Below are positions 5,656 through 9,137 of a DNA stretch of 64,000 nucleotides, in pieces. Both the position numbers and the translations under genes were made by a program. The stretch spans positions 248,001-312,000 of the forward strand of contig NZ_SJSN01000003.1 in the NCBI RefSeq assembly GCF_004331675.1. The letters run 5' to 3'. Source of the stretch: Pedobacter frigidisoli (GTDB lineage Bacteria > Bacteroidota > Bacteroidia > Sphingobacteriales > Sphingobacteriaceae). Below the pieces are notes generated by a model. That model was not told the origin of the DNA and made no database searches. It saw only the letters and a program-made list of their open reading frames with translations. The stretch's first letter is position 1; every line of letters starts with the position of its first letter.

Positions 5656-5730
5656 TATTCGCTGTTTTCTGTTGATATCATTTCTTTCTACCTGCACATA
5701 TTTCCAATACCTTTGGAACAAATAATTATT

Positions 5731-6375
5731 ATGCAGGACCATATTCTAAAAACCATCGATTTTGTTAAGCAAACGTTAGCCCATGCCGAAGCTGGTCATG
5801 ATTGGTTTCATATTGAGCGAGTTTTTAAAACTTCTCAAAATATTAATCAAAACGAAAAAGGCGATGAACTTGTTGTGGCCTTTGCAGCCTTATTACATGA
5901 TATTGCCGATCCAAAATTTAATGATGGCGACGAAGAATTGGGGCCAAATGTGGCAGAATCTTTCTTAAAATCTATTGCTGTTGATGAAGAAACGGTTGAA
6001 CATGTAAAATTGATCATTCAAAATATGTCTTTTAAGAATAGTTTTGATGATACCAGTTTTACCTCAAAGGAAATGCAAATTGTTCAGGATGCCGATCGAT
6101 TAGATGCCATTGGTGCCATTGGTATCGCAAGGGCATTTACCTATGGAGGTTTCAAAAACCGTGTACTTTACGATCCTGCCATTCTACCAGAGCAGCACCT
6201 AACCAAAGAAACCTATAAAAATACAACTGCTCCAACCATCAATCACTTTTACGAAAAGTTGCTTCTATTAAAAGATATGATGAATACGGAAGCTGGAAAG
6301 GCGATTGCGCAGGAACGACATGATTTCATGCTTTTGTATTTAGATCATTTTTATAATGAGTGGGAAGGTAATTAG
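5731..6375 (+). CDS. HD-domain phosphohydrolase (YpgQ/YedJ-like)
   Basis: The 214-residue protein starts at MQDHILKTIDF; a TTG at 5713 would add six residues. The HD metal-binding signature is complete: HDWFHIERV near residue 27, then LLHDIAD near residue 62 and VQDADRLDAIGAIGIARAF near residue 125. The last motif is typical of the YpgQ/YedJ group, of which some members hydrolyse nucleoside triphosphates to pyrophosphate and monophosphate; I place it there by motif only. It is a single-domain, soluble protein. Substrate is not determinable here. Confidence 0.88.
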   Translation: MQDHILKTIDFVKQTLAHAEAGHDWFHIERVFKTSQNINQNEKGDELVVAFAALLHDIADPKFNDGDEELGPNVAESFLKSIAVDEETVEHVKLIIQNMSFKNSFDDTSFTSKEMQIVQDADRLDAIGAIGIARAFTYGGFKNRVLYDPAILPEQHLTKETYKNTTAPTINHFYEKLLLLKDMMNTEAGKAIAQERHDFMLLYLDHFYNEWEGN

Positions 6376-6977: not shown

Positions 6978-7075
6978 ATTTAATGCGGTAATATTCCAAA
7001 ACAGAATAGGAATTAGAAAACATAATACTAATAAATTTAGTTTTAAAGCTATATTTGTTAGTAAATAATATTCCT

Positions 7076-8335
7076 ATGTCATTCGATCGAATTCGTGAAA
7101 AATTAAATATTTTGGCCGATGCTGCCAAGTATGATGTATCATGTTCATCTAGCGGCGGAACAAGAAAAAATGACAATAAAGGCTTGGGCGATAGTCACAG
7201 CTCGGGCATTTGCCATACCTACACTGAGGATGGGCGATGTGTTTCCTTGTTAAAAATTTTGCTAACCAACCACTGCATTTACGATTGTTTATTCTGCGTT
7301 TCGAGAAAAAGTAATGATGTAAAACGTGCCGCTTTTACAGTTGATGAAGTGGTAGAACTTACGATGAATTTTTACAGAAGAAATTACATTGAGGGATTGT
7401 TCTTGAGCTCGGGGATTTTCAAAAATGCCGATTTTACAATGGAAAGGTTGCTTTTGGTTTGTAAGAAACTTCGCTTGGAGCAAAATTACAATGGCTATAT
7501 CCATTTAAAAACCATTCCTGGCGCAAGCGATGAGTTAATAAAAGAGGCCGGATTATACGCTGATAGAATGAGCATTAATTTAGAAATGCCAACCGAGGCA
7601 GGATTGAAACTTTTAGCGCCCGAAAAAAGCCATGCCGACGTGATAAAACCATTAGCTTTTGTGCCGCAAAACATTACACAATTTGCTGCCGATAAAAAAT
7701 TAATCAAGCATGTTCCAAAATTTGTTCCTGCAGGGCAAAGTACCCAAATGGTTATTGGCGCTACGCCAGAAACCGATAAGGATATCATGTACACGGCGAA
7801 TGCTTTCTACAAAAATTTTTCTTTAAAACGAGTTTATTATTCTGGGTATGTTCCAATTAGCAACGATACAAGAATGCCTATTTTAGGAACACAACCACCT
7901 TTGTTAAGAGAAAATCGCTTGTATCAAACAGATTGGCTGATGCGTTTTTATGGTTTTAAGGTTCAGGAAATCTTAAATGATGCCAACCCGAATTTGGATG
8001 TAGATATCGATCCTAAACTGAGTTGGGCCATCCGCAATATGCAACATTTTCCAGTAGACATTAACAAAGCTGATTATAGAATGATCTTGAGAATTCCTGG
8101 TATTGGCGTAATGTCTGCACAAAAAATTGTTCAGGCCAGAAAGTTCGGCAAGCTGAGAATTGACCAACTTAAAAAAATTGGAGTTGCTTATAATCGGGCA
8201 AAGCACTTTATTACCTGTGCTGACAGTCCTTATCAATTAAAAGATTATCAAGGCACTCAGATTAAGGCATTTATTCTAGCAGAGAGTCAGAGTAAATATT
8301 TGAAGACAGATAGTAATCAAATGATTTTATTTTAG
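7076..8335 (+). CDS. Radical SAM protein of the UDG-linked DNA repair/modification type (TIGR03916-like)
   Basis: The 419-residue protein starts at MSFDRIREKLNILADAAKYDVSC; a TTG at 7055 is less likely. It carries a CxxxCxxC 4Fe-4S motif (C67, C71, C74 in CIYDCLFC) embedded in the family's LLTNHC...SRKSNDVKRAAFT context, an N-terminal Cys patch (SCSSSGGTR and SGICHTYTEDGRC), and a C-terminal helix-hairpin-helix (RIPGIGVMSAQKIVQARKFG, near 336-360) of the type that grips DNA backbone. I recognise the family named putative DNA modification/repair radical SAM protein, whose genes occur next to a DUF4130 gene or fused with a uracil-DNA-glycosylase domain. The partner lies 37 bp downstream. The chemistry is unknown. 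Confidence 0.9.
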   Translation: MSFDRIREKLNILADAAKYDVSCSSSGGTRKNDNKGLGDSHSSGICHTYTEDGRCVSLLKILLTNHCIYDCLFCVSRKSNDVKRAAFTVDEVVELTMNFYRRNYIEGLFLSSGIFKNADFTMERLLLVCKKLRLEQNYNGYIHLKTIPGASDELIKEAGLYADRMSINLEMPTEAGLKLLAPEKSHADVIKPLAFVPQNITQFAADKKLIKHVPKFVPAGQSTQMVIGATPETDKDIMYTANAFYKNFSLKRVYYSGYVPISNDTRMPILGTQPPLLRENRLYQTDWLMRFYGFKVQEILNDANPNLDVDIDPKLSWAIRNMQHFPVDINKADYRMILRIPGIGVMSAQKIVQARKFGKLRIDQLKKIGVAYNRAKHFITCADSPYQLKDYQGTQIKAFILAESQSKYLKTDSNQMILF

Positions 8336-8372
8336 ATTTTTAGTTTCTGAAACAAAGAAAACACGGAATTAA

Positions 8373-9137
8373 ATGACCTATATTTTCGATAGCTCCCTAC
8401 CCGGACTTTTAACTGCGGTGTTTGAATGGTTTGAACGCAAGCCGGGAAAAGTTGTGCTAAAATCAACCGAAATTTTTCAACCAGAAGCCTTTTCTGAGAG
8501 CTTTACCGTTGCAACAAATTCAGAAAAGGCAGATAGAGTATGGGCAGGACTGCAAAAAAAATTGAAGAAAGATTGGCTAAGAAAATTTTACTGTTCATAT
8601 TTATCTGAAATTCCAGAAGCTTATAATCATCTGTTTCAGTTTACCATTTATATTTTCCAGAACTCGACTGGTGCGGAAACTAATTATGGAAACGAACATG
8701 TAATTGCTTTGGCCAAATATGCAAAAAGTGTAGAAAGAGAAAAACATAGAATGGAAGCTTTTATTCGCTTTCAACATACTGCTGATGGAATTTTCTATAC
8801 TGGTGTTAACCCAGATTTTAATGTTCTGCCTTTAATTTCTAATCATTTTAAAAATCGTTATGCCGACCAGCAGTGGATTATTTATGATTTAAAGCGCAAA
8901 TATGGTCTGCATTATAATTTAAACACTGTTGAAGAAATTACCATAGACTTTACAAATGGCGTAAATAGTAAAAATCCATCCGCTATCTTATTGGATGAAA
9001 AGGAAGAGCTCTATTCGGTTTTATGGAAAGATTATTTTAAAAGTGCCAATATAGTTGCCCGCAAAAACACTAAACTGCATGTTCAACATGTACCAAAAAG
9101 GTATTGGAAATATTTAACTGAAAAGCAGTTGAGTTAA
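8373..9137 (+). CDS. DUF4130 / TIGR03915 family DNA metabolism protein
   Basis: 254 residues starting MTYIFDSSLPGLLTAVFEWFERKP. The sequence (FDSSLPGLLTAVFE, WAGLQKKL, HVIALAKYAKSVEREKHRMEAFIRFQ, FNVLPLISNHFKNRYADQQWIIYDLKRKYG, ending WKDYFKSANIVARKNTKLHVQHVPKRYWKYLTEK) matches my recollection of the family found beside the radical-SAM gene upstream; in some bacteria this module is fused to a uracil-DNA glycosylase. The C-terminal WKxYF...NxxLHxQHxPxRYWKYLxE block is the DUF4130 hallmark. The two genes are 37 bp apart and surely one unit. No stand-alone glycosylase gene is visible nearby. Confidence 0.88.
   Translation: MTYIFDSSLPGLLTAVFEWFERKPGKVVLKSTEIFQPEAFSESFTVATNSEKADRVWAGLQKKLKKDWLRKFYCSYLSEIPEAYNHLFQFTIYIFQNSTGAETNYGNEHVIALAKYAKSVEREKHRMEAFIRFQHTADGIFYTGVNPDFNVLPLISNHFKNRYADQQWIIYDLKRKYGLHYNLNTVEEITIDFTNGVNSKNPSAILLDEKEELYSVLWKDYFKSANIVARKNTKLHVQHVPKRYWKYLTEKQLS

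Follow-up and report, generated by a model that had tools for sequence, protein, structure and literature searches.

A 64-kb stretch of the Pedobacter frigidisoli genome, hereafter the window, carries two adjacent genes on a common strand, 37 bp apart: open reading frame 1 (ORF1), encoding a radical S-adenosylmethionine (SAM) protein, and ORF2, encoding a protein of the DUF4130 family. An earlier note on this DNA, made from the sequence alone, had proposed a two-gene system with a possible role in DNA repair or modification; both frames, and the motifs it had read in ORF1 (a CxxxCxxC cluster motif, additional N-terminal cysteines and a C-terminal helix-hairpin-helix (HHH)), are found where it had placed them (Table 1). 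An in-frame TTG occurs at 7055, upstream of ORF1, and the ATG chosen here agrees with the starts of relatives. The host genome comprises 5.27 Mb in 60 contigs; the nearest named relative found is Pedobacter psychrotolerans, whose radical-SAM protein is 96% identical.

Table 1. Features of the radical-SAM/DUF4130 locus, in window positions
Feature	Position	Strand	Basis
LexA (SOS) box CTAATAAATTTAG, exact CTAA-N5-TTAG (predicted)	7028-7040	+	35 bp upstream of ATG 7076
Imperfect second LexA-like site CTATATTTGTTAG, 7/8 match	7049-7061	+	Motif scan
ORF1, radical-SAM protein, 419 aa	7076-8335	+	Start ATG 7076, stop ends 8335
Extra cysteine codons C23 (7142-7144), C46 (7211-7213), C55 (7238-7240)	7142-7240	+	52/52 homologues
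CxxxCxxC cluster motif, C67/C71/C74	7274-7297	+	52/52 homologues
Helix-hairpin-helix, Pfam HHH_3	8051-8176	+	27.6 bits, cut-off 27, E 3.2e-6
QMILF, beta-sliding-clamp-binding-type pentapeptide	8318-8332	+	C-terminal pattern scan; family mostly QLxLF
ORF2, TIGR03915/DUF4130 partner, 254 aa, no uracil-DNA glycosylase (UDG) domain	8373-9137	+	Profile matches
DUF4130 C-terminal motif RKNTKLHVQHVPKRYWKYLTEK	9060-9125	+	54/54 in alignment A3

ORF1 scores 674.8 bits against the NCBIfam model TIGR03916 (rSAM_link_UDG; curated cut-off 343.5) and 41 bits against Pfam Radical_SAM (cut-off 29.5, E 2.9e-10); ORF2 scores 264 bits against TIGR03915 (SAM_7_link_chp; curated cut-off 112.25) and matches Pfam DUF4130 at E 1e-49. 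These are the two families that the earlier note had named. There is no sign that ORF1 belongs to a radical-SAM family unconnected with DNA: no other such family scores above its cut-off, and the NCBIfam matches at E up to 0.001 are TIGR03916 and a weak PylB, with no profile of spore photoproduct lyase (SPL), for which NCBIfam models presumably exist. No Pfam family beyond DUF4130 is listed for ORF2 at E up to 10, and PF03167 is absent from it, which rules out a glycosylase reading of this protein. The sole PF03167 protein found in the host genome is a family-1 Ung; UdgX was not found there. Profile searches for relatives of solved structure returned none for the radical-SAM protein at E 0.001 and weak S100 rows only (E 0.06-0.12) for DUF4130. 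A part in anti-phage defence was rejected, PADLOC giving 0 families for either protein.

Pairing of the two families

Co-occurrence was counted in 247 genomes drawn evenly from the phylum, admitting only matches above the curated cut-offs. TIGR03916 is present in 80 genomes and TIGR03915 in 82; 78 genomes have both, 2 the radical-SAM gene only, 4 DUF4130 only and 163 neither, in agreement with the co-occurrence claimed in the earlier note. The genomes are related, so a Fisher P value overstates the independence of these counts. At E 0.001, TIGR03916 matches 136 of the 247 genomes, 56 of them only below the cut-off and therefore left uncounted; among the matches listed, apart from those of G052 and G060 (see below), these are short, low-scoring and mostly confined to the HHH end. 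In genus g8, some genomes have both genes and others neither.

In both genomes with only the radical-SAM gene, that gene lies at a contig end. Among the four with only DUF4130, the radical-SAM gene is split in two in G052 and partial in G060, and the single-contig genomes G033 and G134 show no match to it. Both of these last genomes encode a DUF4130 whose C-terminal motif is changed or absent: three invariant motif residues are changed in the G033 orphan, the remainder of which still scores 200 bits, and the G134 orphan ends ahead of the motif.

Gene order was followed in a second set, of 80 contig loci, the best 80 of 586 confirmed matches. DUF4130 lies downstream on the same strand in 76 and was not found within the locus in 4; in 67 of the 76 its open frame starts within 300 nt of the radical-SAM stop codon, and some Hymenobacter and other loci have extra genes between the pair. 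Recurrent neighbours, other than the S24-type repressor described below, appear to track taxonomy. Besides being widespread in Bacteroidota, the pair is found in Proteobacteria, Fusobacteriota and Clostridia; a control search gave matches to both families in the laboratory strain Caulobacter vibrioides. Further radical-SAM copies were seen in a phage record (L068), with DUF4130 adjoining, and in a viral contig (L153), where the protein retains a C-terminal QLELF.

LexA-type boxes at the window and other loci

Statements from the literature, here and below, refer to excerpts of the cited articles. A LexA-like repressor of Bacteroidetes binds CTAA-N5-TTAG (PMC8565304). The exact copy close upstream of ORF1, a predicted binding site, is the only one in the window, for which shuffles expect 1.67. 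The imperfect second site includes TATATTTG (7050-7057), which we take to resemble the Bacteroidetes -7 element TAnnTTTG; 7-of-8 sites likewise occur in two loci of the same genus (L009 and L013). In the host genome, paired exact CTAA-N5-TTAG boxes precede two of the three Y-family polymerase loci, 93-146 bp (L071) and 837-856 bp (L072) ahead of the domain match, with a gene likely intervening in L072; the third locus (L070) has none. These boxes are in keeping with CTAA-N5-TTAG being the SOS box of the host.

Thirty loci were scanned in the orientation of the gene, distances being taken from the start of the profile match. An exact CTAA-N5-TTAG lies 37-64 bp ahead of the match in all six loci of the host family, and one is present at -87 in one of the two loci of family f9. 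Family f4 has three GGA-N5-TCC boxes in one locus and a single one in two, and the remaining 20 of the 30 loci contain neither pattern. The background is 2 exact CTAA-N5-TTAG in 118,866 positions. Within 200 bp upstream of the 80 loci, 19 have CTAA-N5-TTAG and 11 have at least three GGA-N5-TCC (30 of 80 in all), against 0 and 0 in stretches of equal length within the genes and shuffle means of 0.55 for CTAA-N5-TTAG and 0.006 for at least two GGA-N5-TCC.

An S24-type (LexA-like) repressor gene is the divergent neighbour in 12 of the 80 loci, with Pfam S24 and HTH domains confirmed on 3 of the 12. Eleven of these genes start at a distance of 99-253 bp, and the intervening stretch has three or four GGA-N5-TCC boxes; the twelfth (L106) is 519 bp away, with two boxes. 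The orphan DUF4130 of G134 likewise adjoins an S24-type repressor gene. Locus L156:2929-4642 shows a truncated DUF4130 without a radical-SAM partner, divergent to an S24/HTH LexA-like repressor gene.

Outside the phylum, 16 plasmid loci were taken from 158 plasmid records with a match, and their start codons were chosen by the analyst. GAAC-N7-GAAC starts 17-57 bp before the chosen start codon in all 10 alphaproteobacterial loci; 77.5 kb contain only two more sites of this kind, 12 in total. Both betaproteobacterial loci have CTGT-N8-ACAG, at -29 and -27, as the only copy in each, and the single clostridial locus has two GAAC-N4-GTTC, at -185 and -156. The names attached to these non-Bacteroidetes LexA boxes are in part our assumption. 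The alphaproteobacterial box is given as GTTC-N7-GTTC, that is, GAAC-N7-GAAC on the other strand (PMC8565304). The start of a Gemmatirosa locus is uncertain, so that the box scan there is uninformative. That several groups each have their local LexA box, these boxes being mutually unrelated, is a strong argument for selection holding the pair within the SOS response. The DNA-damage role that the earlier note had suggested is supported.

Features of the two proteins

All six cysteines of the radical-SAM protein are invariant in the 52 aligned homologues, although a single radical-SAM cluster requires only three; 34 of the 52 have another cysteine in a C-terminal column. C23, C46 and C55 are candidate ligands of an auxiliary [4Fe-4S] cluster. 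The ORF1 structure model has a mean predicted local distance difference test (pLDDT) of 71.5 and a predicted template modelling score (pTM) of 0.73, and its HHH region is good (10-residue blocks with mean pLDDT of 94-97). VIA-align places lipoyl synthase first (8tsk_A, Z 16.8, root-mean-square deviation (rmsd) 3.5, 226 residues aligned) and fills its top ten rows with it (Z 15.6-16.8, rmsd 3.1-3.7, 215-229 aligned), with HydE 1.4 lower (7o1o, Z 15.4, rmsd 2.8, 213 aligned); Foldseek puts HydE first and lipoyl synthase 19th. By these rankings the modelled barrel is an ordinary radical-SAM core, and the protein may have a second cluster. Like lipoyl synthase, the window protein has three cysteines N-terminal of CxxxCxxC, but their spacing is CX22CX8C rather than the CX4CX5C of lipoyl synthase, and the modelled cysteine region is unreliable for this comparison. 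SPL is not among the structural matches listed, an absence that proves nothing. The sole divergent homologue found, from Gemmatirosa (L066:3797-5095; 303 bits, below the cut-off), is without the three extra cysteines and has no DUF4130 in its record; it retains CxxxCxxC, the HHH and an internal QLSLW.

At its C-terminus the radical-SAM protein carries a peptide of the type that binds the beta sliding clamp. The strict pattern Q[LM]x[LIM][FL] was sought in the last 20 residues, a hexapeptide form being counted separately. Among 119 homologues, which are related, include the window copy and may hold one species twice, 113 have the tag: 100 fit the strict pattern, 13 the hexapeptide form and 6 neither, the endings of the last including QLSLI, QINLF and QLTLW. 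The tag occurs in 0 of 2,295 internal 20-mers of the same proteins, in 1.0% of shuffled tails, in 0 of 111 DUF4130 frames (last 40 residues) and, in either form, in 1 of 300 flanking ORFs that have a homologue in another locus. None of the host Y-family polymerases, used as positive controls, fits the patterns (L070 ends in QLEFEF). The stretch ahead of the tag is poorly conserved. These patterns suggest that the radical-SAM protein is probably tethered to the clamp; no link between this family and the sliding clamp was found in titles and abstracts of the open-licence PubMed Central literature.

In the DUF4130 partner, RKNTKLHVQHVPKRYWKYLTEK is the densest invariant cluster and, together with I227 just before it, holds 7 of the 19 invariant columns. 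The model (pLDDT 91, pTM 0.84) resembles the DHH phosphoesterases and their relatives. The best Foldseek match is the PAP phosphatase 8a8k (E 1.4e-3), so that none reaches E 0.001; the VIA-align matches include 8a8k_A (Z 8.8, rmsd 5.6, 191 aligned), RecJ 8y30_A (Z 7.9, rmsd 6.9, 200 aligned) and 6skl_E (Z 7.3, rmsd 6.5, 194 aligned), which we take to be a Cdc45 chain. Nearly all of the 50 VIA-align rows listed are DHH/DHHA1 proteins, by title or by our assignment, and the match spans roughly the first 211 residues; Z 8 is reached by only two chains, and below this value the tool warns that a match may reflect merely a common arrangement. The N-terminal consensus YDGSFDGLLTAVF looks to us like DHH motif I, although conservation does not extend to its second acid; in the motif-I-like DG, the acidic position is D/E in 37 of 54 aligned members and P in the window. 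The DHH triad is absent from the invariant columns of these 54, no catalytic aspartates or DHH motif being recognised, and there is no detectable sequence similarity to DHH proteins. Thus, DUF4130 likely has a degenerate DHH-like fold, as judged from the model. Its function is probably non-catalytic, as is probably that of the DHH relative Cdc45. The idea that the partner is related to base excision is not supported: DUF4130 on its own is no glycosylase. The matches listed for the 54 aligned members (25 of 43 families) do not include PF03167.

Fusion to a glycosylase, mentioned in the earlier note, does occur, though not in the window. DUF4130 forms open frames of 237-361 aa without a fused UDG in the loci examined, mostly from Bacteroidota. 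In all 12 alpha- and betaproteobacterial plasmid loci, the only ones examined in which the fusion was seen, its frame extends through a second domain that bears the UdgX motif GEQPG; 10 of the 12 have an R-loop like KRRIH, and TIGR03914 scores above its cut-off in the three tested. UdgX removes uracil and uses the histidine of its R-loop to form a covalent bond with the abasic site (PMC10359453). Relative to the catalogued set TIGR03916/TIGR03915/TIGR03914 (radical SAM, DUF4130 and UdgX), whose NCBI names state no reaction, the window shares the first two families and their adjacency but not the third. Two unfused arrangements were seen in other Proteobacteria. Three Acinetobacter copies (L061, L096 and L102) share 68-69% identity with the window protein, and their transfer between phyla is probable; a betaproteobacterial metagenome-assembled genome (Brachymonas; L135:4001-6067) has a Bacteroidota-like layout, unlike the betaproteobacterial plasmid loci, which may reflect transfer or a binning error.

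Proposed function and alternatives

To our knowledge, SPL is essentially the only established case of DNA repair by a radical-SAM enzyme. The earlier view that the combination is biologically undescribed was too strong: the families and their pairing had been catalogued, and SOS control predicted, before. No description of the reaction was found in the open-licence PubMed Central literature. The COG4277 family is presumably identical to this radical-SAM family. DUF4130 was linked to radical-SAM proteins and UDGs in a 2013 figure legend (PMC3765255), and SOS or LexA control was predicted earlier in Bacteroidetes (PMC8565304) and in Clostridium acetobutylicum (PMC3828012). Such a protein is up-regulated in desiccated Acinetobacter (PMC13130816), and one appears with a ratio of 1.585 in a Fusobacterium co-culture table that also includes uvrC and nth (PMC9848294). 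A LexA-regulated Streptomyces 'Radical SAM protein' (PMC9380542) may belong to another family and was not used. The two-gene Bacteroidetes SOS operon COG1573-COG4277, which has the same LexA motif as the window pair, is described as a base-excision system with a UDG, and COG4277 is not called radical SAM in the excerpts (PMC8565304). In the loci studied here the partner is DUF4130 alone; we infer that this operon is of the window type, and the 'UDG base-excision operon' of the Bacteroidetes SOS response may hold no glycosylase in many species. The same literature yielded no mention of the C-terminal clamp-type peptide, the arrangement of six cysteines, the tentative fold of DUF4130, the LexA boxes that differ from group to group, the divergent repressor gene or the changes in orphan DUF4130.

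The features of the locus suggest, with reasonable probability, that the pair is induced in the SOS response and that the radical-SAM enzyme, probably tethered to the clamp, processes lesions in DNA jointly with DUF4130. Upon DNA damage, LexA would leave the promoter and both proteins would be made. The radical-SAM protein would then dock on the replication clamp by its C-terminal QxxLF-type peptide, and its HHH would grip DNA. The CxxxCxxC cluster would cleave SAM, yielding a 5'-deoxyadenosyl radical that would attack a damaged or bypassed nucleotide, probably assisted by a second iron-sulphur cluster on C23, C46 and C55. DUF4130, a near-obligate partner, would more likely present or hold the DNA, or dock on the enzyme by its C-terminal motif, than cut DNA, because its predicted fold is DHH-like without the DHH catalytic residues. 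Where UdgX is fused, the last stage of the pathway is probably excision of the base with capture of the abasic site. A bolder version, which we regard as possible but doubtful, would make this the first clamp-delivered radical-SAM enzyme, an SOS-induced, two-cluster protein that removes or rewrites a replisome lesion with a dead RecJ/Cdc45-like DUF4130, which in many proteobacteria bears UdgX.

Several observations weigh against this reading of the pair as a clamp-tethered SOS enzyme. The host genome has 102 CTAA-N5-TTAG sites, fewer than the 268 of the pattern read backwards, so that the majority of them may carry no meaning and the position of the box, and not its sequence alone, counts as evidence. 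Fifty of the 80 loci have neither box type within 200 bp, as do the Acinetobacter and Fusobacterium plasmid loci, which carry none of the box patterns. Among the 50, L140 has TTAC-N5-GTAA at -179 and L106 has its two GGA-N5-TCC boxes farther out; the Chryseobacterium loci belong to this group, Chryseobacterium being a member of the Weeksellaceae. Loss of the motif has been linked to repressor paralogy, with the Weeksellaceae named (PMC8565304). The pair is split between contigs in at least two genomes, G178 and G233. The ORF1 model has pLDDT below 50 at residues 20-59 and 64-81, where the cysteines lie. The window peptide QMILF fits the strict pattern but not the exact clamp consensus QL[S/D]LF (as cited in PMC3716654). 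For DUF4130, hhalign against NrnA and RecJ alignments gives a probability of 0.1, no better than the A2 control, and the Z scores are middling. Lastly, DUF4130 occurs without UdgX in L135 (a 274-aa frame) and in Bacteroidota, Fusobacterium, Acinetobacter and clostridial loci, so that an end step of base excision cannot be general.

Other functions would account for part of these data. The pair might make a DNA modification or aid SOS mutagenesis, bases being altered during translesion synthesis: the shared SOS control and the clamp-type motif would suit a translesion-linked role, and the core resembles that of lipoyl synthase, which inserts sulphur from its auxiliary cluster. Thymine is suggested as the modified base in the 2013 figure legend (PMC3765255). 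This alternative is nonetheless unlikely, since base modification has no known benefit in an SOS burst and fusion to UdgX, which combines base removal with capture of the site (PMC10359453), points to removal. It is also conceivable, though quite unlikely, that the radical-SAM protein is a maturase of the DUF4130 C-terminal motif, with DUF4130 as the working protein once modified. Many members of the radical-SAM superfamily act on the product of an adjacent gene, invariant residues of DUF4130 are most densely clustered in this motif, and the two genomes in which the radical-SAM gene is absent have the motif in changed form or not at all; however, a binding interface would change likewise, and an HHH and a clamp-type peptide would be unexpected on a maturase.

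SPL, too, is a radical-SAM enzyme with a role on DNA, but it is not known to have six such cysteines or a partner protein. The window protein has six invariant cysteines, an HHH, a clamp-type peptide and a partner, and shows no SPL profile match. Direct reversal of an ultraviolet dimer in the manner of SPL is therefore very unlikely, even if the radical-SAM core is carried by a protein with a DNA-binding motif and DUF4130-associated radical-SAM proteins have been termed SplB-like (PMC3765255).

With local LexA boxes and a clamp-type tag, the long-standing label of 'putative DNA repair' becomes directly testable in strains kept in the laboratory. DUF4130 gains a candidate fold, and a native setting for UdgX is suggested.

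Upstream of the pair, the window also contains an HD-domain phosphohydrolase gene (5713-6375), whose product is PRK10119-like but scores below the family cut-off.

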